From Candidatus Gastranaerophilales bacterium (GTDB lineage: Bacteria > Cyanobacteriota > Vampirovibrionia > Gastranaerophilales > Gastranaerophilaceae), in NCBI GenBank assembly GCA_947585605.1, contig CANPXC010000006.1, forward strand, positions 1 through 32,101: a DNA stretch of 32,101 nucleotides. The letters are read 5' to 3'. Of the stretch, positions 11,633 through 31,216 are shown in pieces. The notes under the pieces were generated by a model that worked only from the letters and a program-made list of their open reading frames with translations, did no database searches and was not told where the DNA came from. The first letter of the stretch is position 1. Every line of letters starts with the position of its first letter. The position numbers were made by a program, and so were the translations under genes.

Positions 11633-13597
11633 ATGAATAAAAATTTTACATCAAAACTGATATTGGTCATTGTGCTGTTCTTTATAACGGCATTAATGTA
11701 TGTGCTGTCATTAAATTATATTGATGACAAGGCTAATGATTTTTGTACAAAAATTATAACAAATGTTTTTAATAAAAAATCATCGGATAATGTCGTAATT
11801 GTTGCAATAGACAGTAAATCAACCGATAAAATCAAGTGGCCATGGCAGCGGGATTTATTTTCGGATATTTTTGATTATTTAGAATATTATGCCGGCGCTA
11901 AAGCAATAATTTTTCATAATTTAGTTTTGTATCCCGACTCATATTATCCGCAAAAGGATTTAATTTTCTATAATCACATAGCAAAAAATAAAAGACTTAT
12001 AAACAGCTATATATTGGTAAATTCAGCATTCGCGGGTGATGTTCTGCCGGGAGAATTTTTAAAAGAATTTGATAAAAAAAATAATTTAAATATAATCGAC
12101 AAAAGGCATAACAGTATTATTATTCCATATAAGGCAGTCATAAATTTACCAAAAGACTATCTGTTAAATGTAAACAATCTCGCCTCTTCTATTTTATCGG
12201 AGGATAAAGACGAAATATTAAGAAACTATATGCCGGTTGTTTTTTTGAACGATAAAATATACCCTTCAATAGCTCTCAGTGCATATTCTATGTATACGGG
12301 AATAAAAGATTTTGTGCTTTATGATGATTACTTATGTTCCTCAGATAATTGCAAAACCCTTAAAATTCCGATTAAAACACTCCAGACAAGAGATAGTCTC
12401 GGTAATACGATTGAAGGACTATACACAAAAATTGATTGGTATAAACCTCAGAGCGATTATTACATGCATAAAACATATTCCGCCATTGATGTTTTAGTTT
12501 CATATTATGATGTAAAACGAGGAAGTGTGCCTAAAATACCTTTTGAAGCCTTTAAAGATAAAATAGTCATTATTGGGCTTAATGCTGATAAAAGCGTTTG
12601 GGAACAGTTGAGCGAAACTCCGGTTATGTATAAACAAGCAGATATTGATGTACATGCTTCATTTATAAGCAATATGCTCGCTAATTCATTTCAAAAAAAT
12701 TCTCAGTTTGACGCTACTTTAATTATTACTGTTATATTTTCCATGTTTGTTATATTGGGATTTAGACGGTTTAAATATAATATGATTTTAGCAACTTCTC
12801 TTTCCGTATTATATTTTTCCTATTATTTAGTTCAATACAAATTAAAAATTATAATACCGCCCGTTACTCCAATTATAACGATTTATTTATCGGCGTTAAT
12901 GAAGCAATTGTATTCATTAATTACAATTGACAAAACGGTTGATATGATTAAGCGGGCAATGGGCAAATATGTTTCTAAAGATGTAATGAAAAGTGTTTTA
13001 TCAAATTTAGATAAATTAAAAGTCGGCGGTTCAAGAGCTGTTGTTACAATCTTGTTCGTTGATATAAGAAATTTCACGGGGATATCCGAAAATCTTTCTC
13101 CGCAAGATGTTACAATTGTACTTAATGAATATTTTTCTACGATTGAACCGATAATAGCAAAATATCACGGAATTATTAATAAATATATGGGTGATGGTGT
13201 TCTTGCCATATTCGGTGAACCGATAAAGCAAGAAAATCATGCAATAAATGCCGTTAAATGCGCTATGGATATTATGGAAGCAGTAAAACTTTTAAGAAGC
13301 AAATTTATTATGGAGGATAAGCCTAAAATAGAAATAGGAATAGGTATTAATACGGGTGAAGTGTTTGCGGGTAATATCGGTACGGATGAAAGGCTTGAAT
13401 ATACCGTAATTGGTGATAATGTTAACCTTGCATACAGAATTGAGTCTTACAACAGACTTTTAAAAACATCATTTTTAATAAGTCAATATACATACGATTA
13501 TGTTAAAGACTATGTTGATTGTGTTAAACTCAGTCAGGTCGATATTAAAGGTAAATCTAAACCGATAGATATTTATGAAGTTTTAAATATAAAATAA
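11633..13597 (+). CDS. CHASE2-domain adenylate/guanylate cyclase (class III)
   Basis: N-terminal TM, CHASE2-like region (VVIVAIDSKSTDKIKWPWQRDLFSDIFDYLEYYAGAKAIIF), three TM segments, then the cyclase catalytic domain (TILFVDIRNFTGISE, NKYMGDGVLAIFGEP, GIGINTGEVFAGNIG, EYTVIGDNVNLAYRIES). Confidence 0.92.
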   Translation: MNKNFTSKLILVIVLFFITALMYVLSLNYIDDKANDFCTKIITNVFNKKSSDNVVIVAIDSKSTDKIKWPWQRDLFSDIFDYLEYYAGAKAIIFHNLVLYPDSYYPQKDLIFYNHIAKNKRLINSYILVNSAFAGDVLPGEFLKEFDKKNNLNIIDKRHNSIIIPYKAVINLPKDYLLNVNNLASSILSEDKDEILRNYMPVVFLNDKIYPSIALSAYSMYTGIKDFVLYDDYLCSSDNCKTLKIPIKTLQTRDSLGNTIEGLYTKIDWYKPQSDYYMHKTYSAIDVLVSYYDVKRGSVPKIPFEAFKDKIVIIGLNADKSVWEQLSETPVMYKQADIDVHASFISNMLANSFQKNSQFDATLIITVIFSMFVILGFRRFKYNMILATSLSVLYFSYYLVQYKLKIIIPPVTPIITIYLSALMKQLYSLITIDKTVDMIKRAMGKYVSKDVMKSVLSNLDKLKVGGSRAVVTILFVDIRNFTGISENLSPQDVTIVLNEYFSTIEPIIAKYHGIINKYMGDGVLAIFGEPIKQENHAINAVKCAMDIMEAVKLLRSKFIMEDKPKIEIGIGINTGEVFAGNIGTDERLEYTVIGDNVNLAYRIESYNRLLKTSFLISQYTYDYVKDYVDCVKLSQVDIKGKSKPIDIYEVLNIK

Positions 13598-20272: not shown

Positions 20273-21349
20273 ATGTTTAATTTTTTAAAAAGATTATTTA
20301 TTAAATACAACTCAACAATGGAGAAAGAAATATATGAACAGCCTAAAATAATTGAAGAATTATTAAAAAAATATTTGTTAAAAGATAATGACATTAATAT
20401 TGATATACCGGATAACATAAAAAAAATTGCATTGATAGCAAGCGGTTCATCTTATCATAGTGCGACAATTGCCGCAAATTATTTAAGAGATAATGTTCAT
20501 TGCTATGCTCAATCATATTATGCAAGCGAATTTTCTCTTGTTGAAAATATTGATGTTGATAACGATACATTATATATTTTTATTTCACAATCGGGTGAAA
20601 CTGCAGATACAAATAAAGCGCTAGATATAGTAAAAATTAAAACCGATAAAACACTTGCAATAACAAATACAAAAAATTCCACATTATACAATAATGTAAA
20701 ATACAAAGTTTTAACTAATGCAGGTGCAGAAAAAGCTATTGCTTCAACAAAGGCAATGTCAGCTCAAATGTTTTGCCTCTTCTTAATTGCTGCAAAAATA
20801 ATGAAAACAAGAGGTATTCCTGTAGGCAGTCTTGTTGAAGAACTACAAAAAATTCCTGCGGTTATTAAATCAACATTGGAAAAAAGAAAATTAATAAATA
20901 ATTTTTCAAAAAAGTTAAGCAACTACGAAAATGCAGCCATACTTGCTTCCGGAATGTTTTATCCTCTTGCAAAAGAAGGTGCATTAAAAATAAAAGAAAC
21001 CTCTTATATTAATACAACGGCATATCCTACAGGCGAATTTTTGCACGGACATATTGCTATTTTAAATAAAAAATGTGCAGTTATAGCTCTTGTTAATAAC
21101 AATAATGTTGATTTCACTTTAAAAATTTTAGAAAAAATTAAAAACAATTATTCAACGGATTCCTTTATAATTTCCGCTTTTAATATCAACGTTAAAAAGC
21201 AAAAAGATATTATATGTTTAGAAAGCTATAATGACATTGAATTTTTATTTTCCGCATTAATTATTGAACAAATGCTGGCCTATGAAACTGCTGTTTTATT
21301 AGGTAGAAATGTAGATAAGCCGAGCGGATTATCCAAAATTGTTAAATAA
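20273..21349 (+). CDS. Double-SIS-domain sugar-phosphate isomerase, GlmS-like isomerase module without glutaminase domain
   Basis: LIASGSSYHSATIAANYL, FISQSGETADTNKALDIV, AEKAIASTKAMSAQ, AYPTGEFLHGHIAIL, C-terminal VDKPSGLSKIVK. All parallel the GlmS isomerase domain. Confidence 0.88.
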   Translation: MFNFLKRLFIKYNSTMEKEIYEQPKIIEELLKKYLLKDNDINIDIPDNIKKIALIASGSSYHSATIAANYLRDNVHCYAQSYYASEFSLVENIDVDNDTLYIFISQSGETADTNKALDIVKIKTDKTLAITNTKNSTLYNNVKYKVLTNAGAEKAIASTKAMSAQMFCLFLIAAKIMKTRGIPVGSLVEELQKIPAVIKSTLEKRKLINNFSKKLSNYENAAILASGMFYPLAKEGALKIKETSYINTTAYPTGEFLHGHIAILNKKCAVIALVNNNNVDFTLKILEKIKNNYSTDSFIISAFNINVKKQKDIICLESYNDIEFLFSALIIEQMLAYETAVLLGRNVDKPSGLSKIVK

Positions 21350-21425: not shown

Positions 21426-22877
21426 ATGCAAATAAGTTTTTTTAACAAAATTAATACGTACAATAATATATTTAAACGTAATCAAGAGTATCCGATTAAC
21501 AACAGATACCCGAATTTAGCACCATTGCCGAAAGATACTGTTTCTTTTACAGGTTCGGCAGAGCTTATTTCTGAATACATGGCTTATGCCCCTTCCGGTA
21601 ATTTGTGCAAAAAATTAGAGGATGCGGCAATTCCTGCGCAAAAATATTTGGAATTTATTCTGGATAAATATTTAAATCCCATAACAAAAGATGACGGAAA
21701 TAAAAAAACAAACAGCATGCCTGTATTAGCACATCCTACCAGAGTAAAAAGCGCACTCAGTATTAAAGAAAAAGTAGTAAGCAAATTCACAAAAAGCTAT
21801 GATGAATATAATTCTAAAGTCAGAGATGCAGTTTTAAAGGAGTTATTTAAATTTTTTAAAATAAATCCTGCGCATTCAAAAGAAGATGTAATAAAGACAG
21901 TTAATGAATATTTAACGCCGCAAAATACCTATTTAACTTTTAAAAATCCAAAAAATGTAATTAGTGATATAGTATCTGTTACAAAAAATTTAAATTTATT
22001 AAACTACGATGATTATTCAAAAGAAGCGGTGGAGAAAAAGCTGAATGCTATAGAAACAATCATTTCATCTATTTATCCCATACCCATATTACCAAATCCT
22101 TCAACATCGGAAGGAATAAAGTTTTTTGCAAATGACATAGTCGGAGGCAGAATTATTTTAAATAAAACAGACAAAAAAAACACTGCAAAGGTTATTAGTG
22201 CATTAAAGTCTGCAGTCAAAGACGGCTATTTAAATATTACATCAATAGAAAATAACATTCCCGATACTAAAAAAATTCCCAAAAATAAAAGTTTGTCGGA
22301 TTTTGATTACATATCTGAAGACGATTTAAAGTCATTAGCAAAACAAGCCAATGCTGAGCTTATTACAAATAAGTCGCACTCCGGATATATAGCTATTCAT
22401 ATAAATGTTGATTTAAGCAATGCTATTTTTTCAAAATATAACGATAAATTTAACGGATATTCCGGCGAAATTCAAATTATGGGGCCGGACATAGAAACAC
22501 TTAAAGAAGTAGAAGACATTTGCTATAAATTAAAAGACAGTAAAAATGCAATAAGTTCAAGGTACAAAGAATTTAAAGAGCATTTTGACAAATATTATAA
22601 AGACGCAAAACAAGCATTTCAGGATTATACTTATAATTTGTATTTATTCCAAAGAATGCTCCCCGACCATAAATCACAATTAAATCAATCATTTCCTTCA
22701 ATAAAAGATATGGGTTACGAAGGAAAAGTTCCGGCGGAATTAGACTATAATTTATTAAGGGAAATTAAAAACAGATGCGATAGGGAATATAAACAGAATA
22801 ATCCTCCGCAGCCTAAAAAAATTACTCCAACCATGAAAAATTTGATACACGAGCTTGAAAGTTACGTTAAAAAATAA
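21426..22877 (+). CDS. Divergent RelA/SpoT-like nucleotidyltransferase-domain protein
   Basis: Ordered motifs like those of the (p)ppGpp synthetase fold: HPTRVKSALSIKEKV (aa 103-117), NDIVGGRIIL (aa 236-245), KSHSGYIAIH (aa 316-325), GEIQIMGPDIETLKEVEDICYKLK (aa 347-370). N-terminal PLPKDTVSFTG. Confidence 0.6.
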   Translation: MQISFFNKINTYNNIFKRNQEYPINNRYPNLAPLPKDTVSFTGSAELISEYMAYAPSGNLCKKLEDAAIPAQKYLEFILDKYLNPITKDDGNKKTNSMPVLAHPTRVKSALSIKEKVVSKFTKSYDEYNSKVRDAVLKELFKFFKINPAHSKEDVIKTVNEYLTPQNTYLTFKNPKNVISDIVSVTKNLNLLNYDDYSKEAVEKKLNAIETIISSIYPIPILPNPSTSEGIKFFANDIVGGRIILNKTDKKNTAKVISALKSAVKDGYLNITSIENNIPDTKKIPKNKSLSDFDYISEDDLKSLAKQANAELITNKSHSGYIAIHINVDLSNAIFSKYNDKFNGYSGEIQIMGPDIETLKEVEDICYKLKDSKNAISSRYKEFKEHFDKYYKDAKQAFQDYTYNLYLFQRMLPDHKSQLNQSFPSIKDMGYEGKVPAELDYNLLREIKNRCDREYKQNNPPQPKKITPTMKNLIHELESYVKK

Positions 22878-22878
22878 T

Positions 22879-23331
22879 TTATTTGTAGCTTCTCATAACT
22901 TTTTGCATAAGGTTTGTAAGCAAAGGAACATAAAAAATTCGTCCAAATATAACACCTGCTATAATATACGCTAAAATTAATATTATTATGAACTGGAATA
23001 TTGACAGCGAAAATACCGGAGGATATGTCGTAATTATCTTAAGTGATATTAAATAATTTAATTTTGCCGCTAAAAGATTAATAAACGGAATAAGTGCCAA
23101 TATTGACATAACAATATTTAAAACCAGTGTTATAATTGTCAAAATTATTGATATTACCATTGATTGGCATATATTATACATAAGAAAAAACCTTAAATTT
23201 CTTTTGCAGATATAAGCAATTATAATCCATATTAAACCGGCTATTCCCATTGTAATATATGATAAAATTGAAATAATTTTTTCTATAAGAAATATTTTAT
23301 TAGTGTTATGCGGCATTGTTTGTATTCTCAT
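22879..23331 (-). CDS. Small polytopic membrane protein, Tic20-like
   Basis: About 4 TM segments. NLRFFLMYNICQSMVISIIL resembles the Tic20 R/F-x-RFNxMQAxLLDI segment, and the C-terminal RIFYVPLLTNLMQKVM resembles the Tic20 C-terminal IPxISDAxxxQ segment. Start uncertain (ATG 23331 or 23316). Confidence 0.55.
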   Translation of the reverse strand: MRIQTMPHNTNKIFLIEKIISILSYITMGIAGLIWIIIAYICKRNLRFFLMYNICQSMVISIILTIITLVLNIVMSILALIPFINLLAAKLNYLISLKIITTYPPVFSLSIFQFIIILILAYIIAGVIFGRIFYVPLLTNLMQKVMRSYK

Positions 23332-24379
23332 CAAGTGTATTATTCTTTATAAATTCTTGAACAATTTCAATATAAACAAGCTTAATTTCATCATTATCAC
23401 TATCAATATCAATTGCTTGTTTGTATAAAGAAATAGCGGAACGCAAATCTTTAAGCATAACATAAGTATTGCCTAAAAGCGTATAAACATTTGAATCCGC
23501 AGGTTCAATTTCAAGAACTTTTTTATATACTTCAGCAGCTTCCTCGTATTTTTTATCAGAAAAATAAAGATTACCCAAAAGGATGTATGCATTTTTAGCT
23601 GAAGGATTAATTTCAATTGCTTTCTGATAAAGATTAATTGCGTCATCCAAATTACCTTGTTCATACTTTGAAATAGCATAGCACAAGTATGATTGGTAGT
23701 ATTTGGGCTTTTCTTTAATTATTTTATCAAAGTAAGAATTTGCTTCCGTGTAATTTTTTGCTGCAGAAAGAGCATTTGCGCAGAATAAAATATATTTAAA
23801 ATTATCAGAATCGAGCGAAAGCGCCTTTTTAAAATTCTCCGCAGCTTCACTGTTTCTTGACATTTTCATTAATATAAAGGCAAGGTTAATATAATTTTCG
23901 GGAACTTTATTATCAATTGCCAAAGCTTTTTCATAATATCTAAGCGCTTCTTCATAATTTTCCCGGTCTTGGTAGAGCATTGCTATTGCTGAATAAACTT
24001 TATAATTATTCTTATCCATGTTTAAAGCTTTAATATAGTTTGACATGGACTGCTTAAAATCGCCTAATTCGGCATAAGCATTACCAAGGTTATAGAATAC
24101 CGAAAAATTATCAACATCAAGACTTGCCGCCCGCGAATAATAATTTATTGCTTTTTTAAAATCATATTTGCAAAAATATATGCTGCCTAAATTTGTCAAA
24201 GCAATATAATTGGAACTTTCAAATTGCAGCAGACTTTCATACACTCCGATAGCTCTGTCATACTCATTATCTGCCAGATATATATTTGCCAGTTTAATAT
24301 AATTATCGGAATTATTCGGATTATCAACAATTGACTTTATTAAATTTTTAATAATTTGATTTTTATTTTCAGCTTCCAT
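23306..24379 (-). CDS. Tetratricopeptide repeat (TPR) protein
   Basis: At least 9 consecutive ~34-aa TPR units (for example VFYNLGNAYAELGDFKQSMSNYIKALNMDKNN, AYILLGNLYFSDKKYEEAAEVYKKVLEIEPAD). Start set at MEAENKNQ (24379) rather than the ORF-track 24415. Confidence 0.92.
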   Translation of the reverse strand: MEAENKNQIIKNLIKSIVDNPNNSDNYIKLANIYLADNEYDRAIGVYESLLQFESSNYIALTNLGSIYFCKYDFKKAINYYSRAASLDVDNFSVFYNLGNAYAELGDFKQSMSNYIKALNMDKNNYKVYSAIAMLYQDRENYEEALRYYEKALAIDNKVPENYINLAFILMKMSRNSEAAENFKKALSLDSDNFKYILFCANALSAAKNYTEANSYFDKIIKEKPKYYQSYLCYAISKYEQGNLDDAINLYQKAIEINPSAKNAYILLGNLYFSDKKYEEAAEVYKKVLEIEPADSNVYTLLGNTYVMLKDLRSAISLYKQAIDIDSDNDEIKLVYIEIVQEFIKNNTLDENTNNAA

Positions 24380-28450: not shown

Positions 28451-31216
28451 ATGACTACAGGTATTTTTGCAAATTACGCTGACAGTAATCTATATTCGAA
28501 GTATAGTTCTGCAAATCAACAAACCGGTACACAGGCGGAAAATAAGAATAAAAATCTTCCGGTTGTTAACAAAAAGGAAAAATTTGTTAAAAAGGCAAAG
28601 GAGATTGCCCCGATAGTACTACCGCTTGTTGCAATTCCCGTAACTGCTCTTGTAACATATAAACTCTCAACAAAAAGCACGCAATCACTAAAAAAAGAAG
28701 TTTCCGCTTTGACCCAAAAGGTGGGAAGTTTGACCGATGAGTTATCAGTTTTAAAAGAATCAGGTGAAAAAGTTAAAAATACTGTTATACAGCAGGCAAA
28801 AGAAACAAGTAAAGCTGACGCAAAAATATGGTCAGTATTATTAACATTATCAGGCATGGCAGGAACATATCAAGCGGGGAAAATGAGTAATGAAGATAAA
28901 AATAATGTTGCTAAAGCCGCTTCAAACAGATTAAATAACATTGAAGAGAGAACAGGACAAGCGCTTAATAATGCAAGTGTTGCACTTCAGGGTGCCGGGC
29001 CTTTAACTGCAAAGTATACAACAACATACAATGGCATTACACTGCTTAGCAATAATACAACTCCTAAAGACACTAAAAAATACGAAACTGCAATTGAAAG
29101 TATTGAAAAAGCCGCTCCGACATATTTATATGAAAGACCGAAAGTTAACCCGATTAATAAAGAAAATCCGGTATTATGGTCTGTAACATCCGAATTTGCC
29201 CCAATGAAAGAAGGCGGGCTTGGAAGTGTTCCCGTTGATATACAATCTAATTTTGAAAAACTTGGAGTTAAAACTCCGACATTCTTACCAATGTATCAGG
29301 AAAGCGGTGTAGCTTCTTTGGTTGAAGAAAACGGAAACTATATTTATAAATACAATGATAACTACTTTGTATTAGATAATGCAGCCACATACAAGGTTGA
29401 TGCATATCAAGACGGAAAGACAAAAGAAGAAAACGTTGATATATTTGTTGTTAAAAAGTCGTTTACCAAAAAAGACATTAAAAATACTATTGCAAAAGAG
29501 TTAGAAGCCGGCAATAAAATCACTGAAGATAAAGCCAAACAAATAATACTTAGTGATAATACAGGTAAATATGATTATGTAAATAAACTAATTCTTGTTA
29601 AGAATGATCATTATTTCAACGGAAAAATATACTCAACGGGAGAAAAAACGGAAGAACCCGAAAAATTTGCATTCTTCTCAAAAGCTGTATATGAATTTGC
29701 GAAAATTAAAGAAGATAAAACAAGCGCTAAAGATTTAAAAATAAATAACAGTGAAGCATTTAATTCAATACCGCAAATGGACGGATTAATATTAAATGAT
29801 TGGCATGCTGCTCCGATTGCAGCTTTGGCAAGATACAAAGCTCCGCTGGAAAATGCTTTCGGACAATTATCAAACGAAGCTTCCGAAAAATTAAGAAATA
29901 TAAATATAATCACTATCGGCCACAACGCTATGTATCAAGGTTCAACAAATTCGAAAAATAATAACGAACAAAGATATCAGGTAACATCAAATATTTTAAA
30001 TACATTATTTGATAATTATGCCGATACAATATACACTCACGCAAAAACAAATGCTTATGAAAGAAATAAATCGGATGAAGGTCTTAAGAATTTAGATAAT
30101 ACTCTGATTATTAATCCTCAAAACGGAAATGAAAATCACACAAACCTTTTAAATATGGGAATTTGCTTAAGTAATTACTTCTGCCCGGTTAGTAAAAACT
30201 ATGCAAAAGAATTAATTTCTCCAAATCACAAGAATTTAGCAGGAGAATTACAATGGGCATTAACGCAGAAGGATAAATCTAAATCAATGGTCGGTATAAT
30301 AAACGGCAATGATTTTAAGAAACTTTCAATAGAAGGCAAAGCCAAAAATATTAAAGATACAACAGATTTAGACTACGAGCTTTACAAACAAAATTCCGAT
30401 ATTTCAGACGTAATGAAAGCCAGAAAAAAGAATAAAATAAATTTCTATAACAATTACATTGTGCCTCTTTCACAAAAAAACAGTGCGCCGGAAGGTGAAA
30501 TGACAGCATTTAAAGATATGACTTCTAATTTGGATTATATTGAACCAAATGAAGAAATAAAATTAACCCAATTACCGGCAGCAGAGCTGGAAGATACACC
30601 AATTATAGCTTCTGTCGGCAGACTTGTCAGCCAAAAGGGTATAAATATTATGGCAGACGCGATTGAAATGTTATACGAAAATTGGGAAACTGATTTCCCC
30701 AATAACGAAAAGAAACCTATATTCTACATTGCAGGTTCTGACGGCGAAGAAGGAAAACAAAGAAAATTTATATACGATTTAAAGAATGAAAAATTAGACA
30801 AAGAAGATTCAAAAAGAGTAATATTTGCTCACGGATTTGCACCGTTTGCGGCAATGGCTGCGGCGTCTGATTTTTTCTTACTTCCGAGTGTTTTTGAACC
30901 GTGCGGATTAACTCAAAGTGAAGCTTTTGCAGTAGGAACTCCGGTTATTGCGAGTGCTGTCGGCGGTATTATTGACACTGTTAACAGAAACAATAAATTC
31001 AACGGTGTTCTTACCGACAAGAATAAAAATCTTACTGCACAAGAGTTGTATGAAGCAATGAAAAAAGGCTTGAAAATATATTTTGAAGATAAAAACAAAT
31101 ATCAAAATATGGTAAAAGACTCTTTGACGGAAGATTTTAGCTGGTATATAAAAGGTAAAGACTGCCCGAGTGTTGATTATCTCAAGCTTGCCGGCATTGA
31201 TGTAAGTAAATATTAA
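28451..31216 (+). CDS. Glycogen/starch synthase-like GT5 enzyme with N-terminal membrane/coiled-coil extension
   Basis: VLWSVTSEFAPMKEGGLGSVPVDI (GlgA KxGGLG motif), LILNDWHAAPIAAL, ASVGRLVSQKGINIMADAIEML, FFLLPSVFEPCGLTQSEAFAVGTPVIASAVGGIIDTV. First ~240 residues are unrelated to GlgA and include hydrophobic segments near aa 52-70 and 126-140. Confidence 0.85.
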   Translation: MTTGIFANYADSNLYSKYSSANQQTGTQAENKNKNLPVVNKKEKFVKKAKEIAPIVLPLVAIPVTALVTYKLSTKSTQSLKKEVSALTQKVGSLTDELSVLKESGEKVKNTVIQQAKETSKADAKIWSVLLTLSGMAGTYQAGKMSNEDKNNVAKAASNRLNNIEERTGQALNNASVALQGAGPLTAKYTTTYNGITLLSNNTTPKDTKKYETAIESIEKAAPTYLYERPKVNPINKENPVLWSVTSEFAPMKEGGLGSVPVDIQSNFEKLGVKTPTFLPMYQESGVASLVEENGNYIYKYNDNYFVLDNAATYKVDAYQDGKTKEENVDIFVVKKSFTKKDIKNTIAKELEAGNKITEDKAKQIILSDNTGKYDYVNKLILVKNDHYFNGKIYSTGEKTEEPEKFAFFSKAVYEFAKIKEDKTSAKDLKINNSEAFNSIPQMDGLILNDWHAAPIAALARYKAPLENAFGQLSNEASEKLRNINIITIGHNAMYQGSTNSKNNNEQRYQVTSNILNTLFDNYADTIYTHAKTNAYERNKSDEGLKNLDNTLIINPQNGNENHTNLLNMGICLSNYFCPVSKNYAKELISPNHKNLAGELQWALTQKDKSKSMVGIINGNDFKKLSIEGKAKNIKDTTDLDYELYKQNSDISDVMKARKKNKINFYNNYIVPLSQKNSAPEGEMTAFKDMTSNLDYIEPNEEIKLTQLPAAELEDTPIIASVGRLVSQKGINIMADAIEMLYENWETDFPNNEKKPIFYIAGSDGEEGKQRKFIYDLKNEKLDKEDSKRVIFAHGFAPFAAMAAASDFFLLPSVFEPCGLTQSEAFAVGTPVIASAVGGIIDTVNRNNKFNGVLTDKNKNLTAQELYEAMKKGLKIYFEDKNKYQNMVKDSLTEDFSWYIKGKDCPSVDYLKLAGIDVSKY

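Follow-up and report, generated by a model that had tools for sequence, protein, structure and literature searches.

Exported alarmone synthetases (EAS) are established, with SaEAS, VpEAS, AaEAS and Apk1/Tas1 as examples, and the delivery parts reported for them are Sec signals, LXG/WXG, XopAD, MuF, DUF4157 and Rhs/PAAR (PMC12691689). Gastranaerophilales are not mentioned in the main text of that paper, and our literature search returned no paper combining 'small alarmone synthetase' with 'Melainabacteria'. Here we describe a gene for a divergent RelA/SpoT-type synthetase from a Candidatus Gastranaerophilales bacterium, found on one 32-kb contig (CANPXC010000006.1, 32,101 nucleotides; the window) of a draft genome of 1.79 Mb in 172 contigs. 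The named relatives of this genome are metagenome-assembled Candidatus Gastranaerophilales, mostly from animal guts, and are non-photosynthetic kin of the Cyanobacteria. On balance we think it probable that the gene encodes a catalytically competent, divergent 3'-pyrophosphokinase of the small alarmone synthetase (SAS) or EAS type that carries a new N-terminal delivery tag. Such an enzyme would most likely use ATP as the donor of pyrophosphate for the 3'-OH of a purine nucleotide, and the tag of about 40 residues would send it to a specific location, which is most likely outside the cytoplasm; a helical insertion in the catalytic region would be a group-specific addition, and the product as a whole would be an exported, effector-like alarmone synthetase.

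The start codon of the gene is well fixed, with an in-frame stop five codons 5' of the ATG of the open reading frame (ORF). The original prediction, made from the window's letters alone, had proposed a RelA/SpoT-like nucleotidyltransferase with four motifs, and these are present at the residues it named (R106/K108, D237, Y321/H325 and E348/Q350); the gap between the first two, put at some 120 residues, measures about 118. When the window protein was scanned alone against Pfam and NCBIfam, there was no RelA_SpoT match, PF04607 did not reach an E-value of 10, and what was returned, such as YfdX at 0.046, consisted of chance matches only; the same scans contained no HD, TGS or ACT domain, as had been stated earlier. 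The relationship emerges from the family. Matches to the protein occur in 73 of 193 genomes of the order Gastranaerophilales; PF04607 matched 19 of 30 relatives (best 2.1e-10), and the RelA/SpoT motif order is visible in the alignment of these 30. Searched against the sequences of the PDB, the family profile matched Bacillus subtilis YwaC/SAS2 (6fgk) at 3e-8, followed by other small alarmone synthetases, so that family and SAS2 motifs could be paired: RVKSxxSIxEK with SRVKSFESIVNK, DIVGARI with DIAGVRI, SGYxAIH with NGYRSLH, and GEIQIxG with AEIQIRT. In an alignment of 59 homologs, K108, S112, K116, D237, Y321, E348 and Q350 are invariant and R106, G240, R242 and H325 are conserved in at least 90%. 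Because the catalytic positions are conserved to this degree, the presence of the four motifs at their positions is far from chance, and D237 and E348, on whose conservation in orthologs the original prediction had staked its assignment, are both among the invariant residues. The acceptor-side residues differ from those of canonical (p)ppGpp synthetases, with SGYI/M in place of NGYR and EIQIxG in place of EIQIRT, and a purine nucleotide is for this reason only a putative acceptor.

The predicted structure of the window protein has a predicted local distance difference test score (pLDDT) of 87.6 and a predicted template modelling score of 0.83. Its Foldseek matches were weak; in their order CapRel came first, and SaEAS and FaRel2 lay within the top five. 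After this result, a 380-aa relative that lacks the insertion was modelled (pLDDT 86.3). Foldseek with this second model returned 21 PDB chains at E ≤ 0.001, all of them enzymes of the alarmone-synthetase fold, and the first 47 PDB matches were all SAS2/RelP, SAS1 or related small synthetases, CapRel, SaEAS, FaRel/FaRel2 or SpoT. Membership of the family in the RelA/SpoT synthetase fold (PF04607) is thus strongly supported by profile, motif order and predicted three-dimensional fold, and the fold assigned in the original prediction is upheld by the PF04607 matches, the SAS2 profile match and the PDB matches of the insertion-free relative. It follows from the fold match that D237 and E348 would lie at one site. 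The aligned segment between residues 118 and 230 is 113 residues long in the window protein and 115-125 in almost all members of its syntenic group, the exceptions being two members with 19 and 22; elsewhere in the family it is 10-32. The insertion is a group-level add-on, confined to the syntenic group of the window, and does not define the family.

The N-terminal tag is a more unusual feature of this protein than the synthetase fold. The tag (residues ~1-43) and a block of the form LKxxEDxCYK (residues 359-368) were both absent from the original prediction, and both are conserved. The disordered leader, the most conserved non-catalytic feature of the family, ends in NLAPLxxDTVSF(S/T)G, and in the model of the window protein the pLDDT is below about 57 across residues 1-50. 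All 62 homologs, collected with a core peptide pattern that is independent of the tag, have it, four of them in a degenerate form. A degenerate DNA pattern for the tag gave 33 matches in 31 genomes of the genus, compared with 1 for a reversed control, and of 30 tag-pattern matches that were read on, 5 were chance matches in short frames. With a 17-column hidden Markov model and a threshold of E ≤ 0.5, the tag was found in 123 of the 147 genomes of the family. Each of 60 further tag places that were inspected lies near an N-terminus, with the Asp typically at residue 35-37. Clustering of the bodies behind the tag gave 23 groups outside the synthetase family; this count rests on a core-only synthetase profile, a first labelling of the family having been inflated by the shared tag. 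Among the tagged bodies supported by Pfam are HNH nucleases, a NUMOD protein, a pentapeptide-repeat protein, a protein with a poly(A)-polymerase head and phosphoglucomutases, and many others are without a Pfam match. The leader differs in composition from what follows it: Asp and Glu make up 1.6% of synthetase leaders versus 14.9% of the bodies, and Asn 19.7% versus 6.3%, while in unrelated tagged proteins the corresponding values are 3.1% versus 14.8% and 17.7% versus 6.8%. By composition, position and sharing between proteins, the tag looks like a targeting signal. Within the phosphoglucomutase superfamily it is an add-on, because only one of the four members in the window genome is tagged (locus L126, 2-1390, minus strand, on contig C153). 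Looser tag-like N-termini, such as MRISPISFG and NSLAFKG, occur in the same genome (the upstream ORF of locus L226; L219, 8091-8309, minus; L220, 1642-1863, plus), so that PLxxDTVSF may be too narrow a description of the signal. Another tagged family, of about 410 aa (L199, 755-2035, minus; L206, 711-1943, minus; L183, 687-1925, minus; L213, 110-1336, plus) has the motif order K..S...K, DxxR, S.Y.D.Q, E.I..G. By eye this order resembles that of a degenerate RelA/SpoT domain; comparison of profiles lent no support, with an hhalign probability of 0.8% and no RelA_SpoT or SAS match, and the resemblance is kept as a lead.

Domains related to the synthetase also occur in large proteins. The core profile matched the C-terminal part of five proteins of 1,700-2,500 aa in related genomes, with E-values of 3e-13 to 3e-22, and one of them (L229) also contains a GNAT domain. 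An arrangement in which a giant protein ends in an enzyme is characteristic of delivered toxins, and these five proteins resemble multi-domain toxins of that kind. In the window genome itself, a 765-aa protein (L222, 3195-5489, minus, contig C66; also L032, 703-3000, minus) has a middle part rich in glycine and alanine, and its C-terminal half is RelA/SpoT-like; there the core profile finds domains at 2e-6 and 9e-10 and PF04607 matches at 0.0002. Its gene is followed on the same strand by a 142-aa ORF that could encode an immunity protein. The PLxxDTVSF tag is absent from the five giant proteins and from the 765-aa protein. Because related domains terminate giant proteins in the manner of delivered toxins, the analogy favours an effector reading of the synthetase domain family.

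As to the route by which tagged proteins might leave the cell, most Gastranaerophilales genomes available in 2014 were reported to have kept just a subset of the flagellar genes (Soo et al., 2014; PMC4040986). We found the export gate FlhA in the window genome and in 146 of 147 family genomes; flagellin was present in 58 of the 147 and in none of the seven genomes sampled from the genus of the window. In exactly 57 genomes, each of them with flagellin, the best FlhA match has an E-value below 1e-250; in the remaining 89 it is weaker, mostly about 1e-215, and just one of these has flagellin; several flagellated genomes have both kinds of match. Two contigs of the window genome hold ORFs that, read in order, look like FlgG, FlgB, FlgC, FliE, FliF, FliH, FlhA and FliI, with a family match for FlhA only. 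Distinct from the full-length FlhA is a 487-aa protein (L220, 1916-3376, minus, contig C83) that matches FlhA in the C-terminal, cytoplasmic half alone (PF00771 positions 321-652, 3e-49), and matches of this type and of similar strength occur in other genomes. A flagellar-type export machine is on this footing a candidate exporter for the tagged proteins, and an export machine that is independent of flagellin would go well with an N-terminal tag as widespread as this one. We put forward, as a speculative extension and rather doubtful as it stands, that PLxxDTVSF(S/T)G is a new N-terminal secretion signal that routes a large and diverse effector repertoire, the alarmone synthetase included, through a flagellar-type type III export machine that needs no flagellin and is kept by gut Gastranaerophilales even where flagellin is missing.

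Strong members of the family occur only in the order Gastranaerophilales, with a few weaker matches elsewhere in the class, and the phage and plasmid collections searched contain no family match. A SIS-domain gene resembling the isomerase half of GlmS lies upstream of the synthetase gene, and a TolC-type gene precedes it in 29 of the 30 loci that have it. In a second group of 21 loci, the synthetase gene is followed by a gene of ~407 aa, read as glucose-6-phosphate isomerase. The convergent membrane-protein gene downstream in the window is, by its orientation, not an antitoxin candidate. The original prediction had noted no antitoxin-like ORF next to the gene, and this extends to the family: there is none beside the gene, and no small co-directional partner is conserved in 62 related loci. 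A toxin-antitoxin module is not supported, because the loci are fixed and syntenic and no such partner is conserved. The window genome also encodes a canonical long Rel as a separate protein of 735 aa (PF04607 at 2e-45). Elsewhere in the window, positions 11633-13597 (plus strand) encode a CHASE2-adenylate/guanylate cyclase protein (Pfam), another nucleotide-messenger enzyme, and positions 28451-31216 (plus strand) a protein with a C-terminal part that by eye is like glycogen synthase and a long N-terminal extension that contains a hydrophobic segment, probably spanning the membrane; relatives at syntenic loci (L046) have this extension as well.

Table 1. Features of the synthetase gene, its neighbours and related giant proteins. 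Coordinates are those of the window unless a locus (L) is given.
Feature	Coordinates	Strand	Basis
Divergent RelA/SpoT-type synthetase gene, 483 aa	21426..22877	+	ORF; 59-member alignment; family fold
N-terminal leader and tag, residues 1-43; disordered, Asn-rich, acid-depleted	21426..21554	+	Low pLDDT; composition; across 62 homologs
Tag core PLPKDTVSF, residues 33-41	21522..21548	+	D37, F41 invariant; P33, L34 at least 90% (59 homologs); common to unrelated proteins
ATP-side motif TRVKSALSIKEKV, residues 105-117	21738..21776	+	K108, S112, K116 invariant; aligns with SRVKSFESIVNK of SAS2; holds R106/K108
Helical insertion, ~95 residues, roughly residues 125-215	21798..22070	+	Segment lengths; helices in model
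Metal-Asp motif NDIVGGRIIL, residues 236-245	22131..22160	+	D237 invariant; aligns with SAS2 DIAGVRI
Base-stacking Tyr motif SGYIAIH, residues 319-325	22380..22400	+	G320, Y321 invariant; H325 at least 90%; aligns with SAS2 NGYRSLH
Second acidic motif GEIQIMG, residues 347-353	22464..22484	+	E348, Q350 invariant; aligns with SAS2 AEIQIRT
Family-specific block LKEVEDICYK, residues 359-368	22500..22529	+	K360, E363, D364, C366, Y367, K368 invariant (59 homologs)
SIS-domain gene (GlmS isomerase-half-like), upstream	20273..21349	+	Pfam SIS 1.2e-29; conserved at position -1 in 30 loci
Membrane protein of ~150 aa, convergent neighbour	22879..23334	-	Position +1 conserved in 27 loci; Pfam match absent
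Giant proteins with RelA/SpoT-like C-terminal domain	L229:1092-8621, L230:2933-8176, L231:2105-9148, L232:2153-8308, L233:2111-7315	+, -, +, -, -	Core profile

For the synthetase, we infer catalysis, acceptor and export from sequence, and a number of observations weigh against the reading of an exported enzyme. The leader is without a Sec-type hydrophobic segment, the genes next to the synthetase are housekeeping genes, and Foldseek with the protein's own model gave no match with E below 0.001. The export of the tagged proteins is itself argued from indirect signs, and those that look metabolic, the phosphoglucomutase and the poly(A)-polymerase-head protein, would suit an intracellular destination too. 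Moreover, because FlhA is nearly universal in the family, no correlation between gate and tag can be drawn. The protein could instead be a cytosolic housekeeping synthetase of the RelP/RelQ type, its N-terminal motif serving for intracellular docking or localisation and not for export. Fixed syntenic loci among housekeeping genes, with no immunity or antitoxin partner, would fit such a protein, as would the tagged phosphoglucomutase of the window genome and a long Rel able in principle to remove the product; we nevertheless regard this as possible and on the unlikely side, since the strongly acid-depleted, Asn-rich leader also sits on nuclease-like and other effector-like bodies, where it looks like a delivery signal, and since related domains terminate giant proteins.

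The original prediction had left a choice between a lineage-specific SAS, a toxic SAS (toxSAS)-like effector and a repurposed nucleotidyltransferase. The first gains from the restriction of strong members to one order; a toxSAS paired with its own antitoxin is not supported, given fixed, syntenic, partnerless loci and the lack of matches in the phage and plasmid collections. A tRNA-modifying toxin of the toxSAS/CapRel kind, or an antiphage effector, acting in the cytosol would fit the family-specific acceptor-side changes and the additional LKxxEDxCYK block; CapRel ranks second among the fold matches of the insertion-free relative, and PDC-S33, a PADLOC candidate, is matched by 4 of the 30 members (best 6e-8). 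The window protein, however, has no PADLOC match, neither an antitoxin nor a fused neutralising domain is apparent, the loci are fixed and vertically conserved, and copies are absent from the phage and plasmid collections, and we consider this explanation improbable. Slightly less credit still is due to a repurposed nucleotidyltransferase fold without alarmone-type chemistry: similarity to characterised synthetases is low, the protein alone is invisible to Pfam and the insertion sits between two catalytic motifs, yet each catalytic position tested is conserved and alarmone synthetases dominate the fold-search results. With the tagged, catalytically competent synthetase as the preferred reading, a previously unrecognised, order-wide family that is largely invisible to Pfam would be added to the alarmone synthetases, and the tag, found on many otherwise unrelated proteins, would offer a handle on a sorting or secretion system in gut bacteria that are common and for the most part uncultured.

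Compared with known systems, the family shares the synthetase fold with the long RelA/SpoT homologs Rel and SpoT, and full-length SpoT is among the matches, whereas the window protein has no HD, TGS or ACT match. It resembles the toxSAS enzymes FaRel, FaRel2 and CapRel in fold, CapRel standing high in the list, and differs from them in having no antitoxin partner, in its fixed loci and in the absence of copies from the phage and plasmid collections searched. With SAS2/RelP (YwaC) and SAS1/RelQ (YjbM) it has in common the fold, the motif order, the catalytic residues (RxKxxxSIxxK, D, GY..H, ExQ) and the stand-alone arrangement without hydrolase or antitoxin; identity to these enzymes is very low, SGYI/M and EIQIxG replace their NGYR and EIQIRT, and the N-terminal tag, the group-specific helical insertion and the LKxxEDxCYK block are further differences. 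As in EAS, a synthetase domain is joined to an N-terminus of, here, putative delivery type, often with no immunity gene, and SaEAS (8vx3) is among the fold matches. Pfam finds none of the reported EAS delivery domains in the window protein, PLxxDTVSF is not among the reported delivery parts (PMC12691689), and for the Gastranaerophilales protein, unlike the established EAS, export is something we infer. The protein is best filed as a divergent enzyme of the SAS fold that would work most like an EAS, and not as the toxin of a toxin-antitoxin module.
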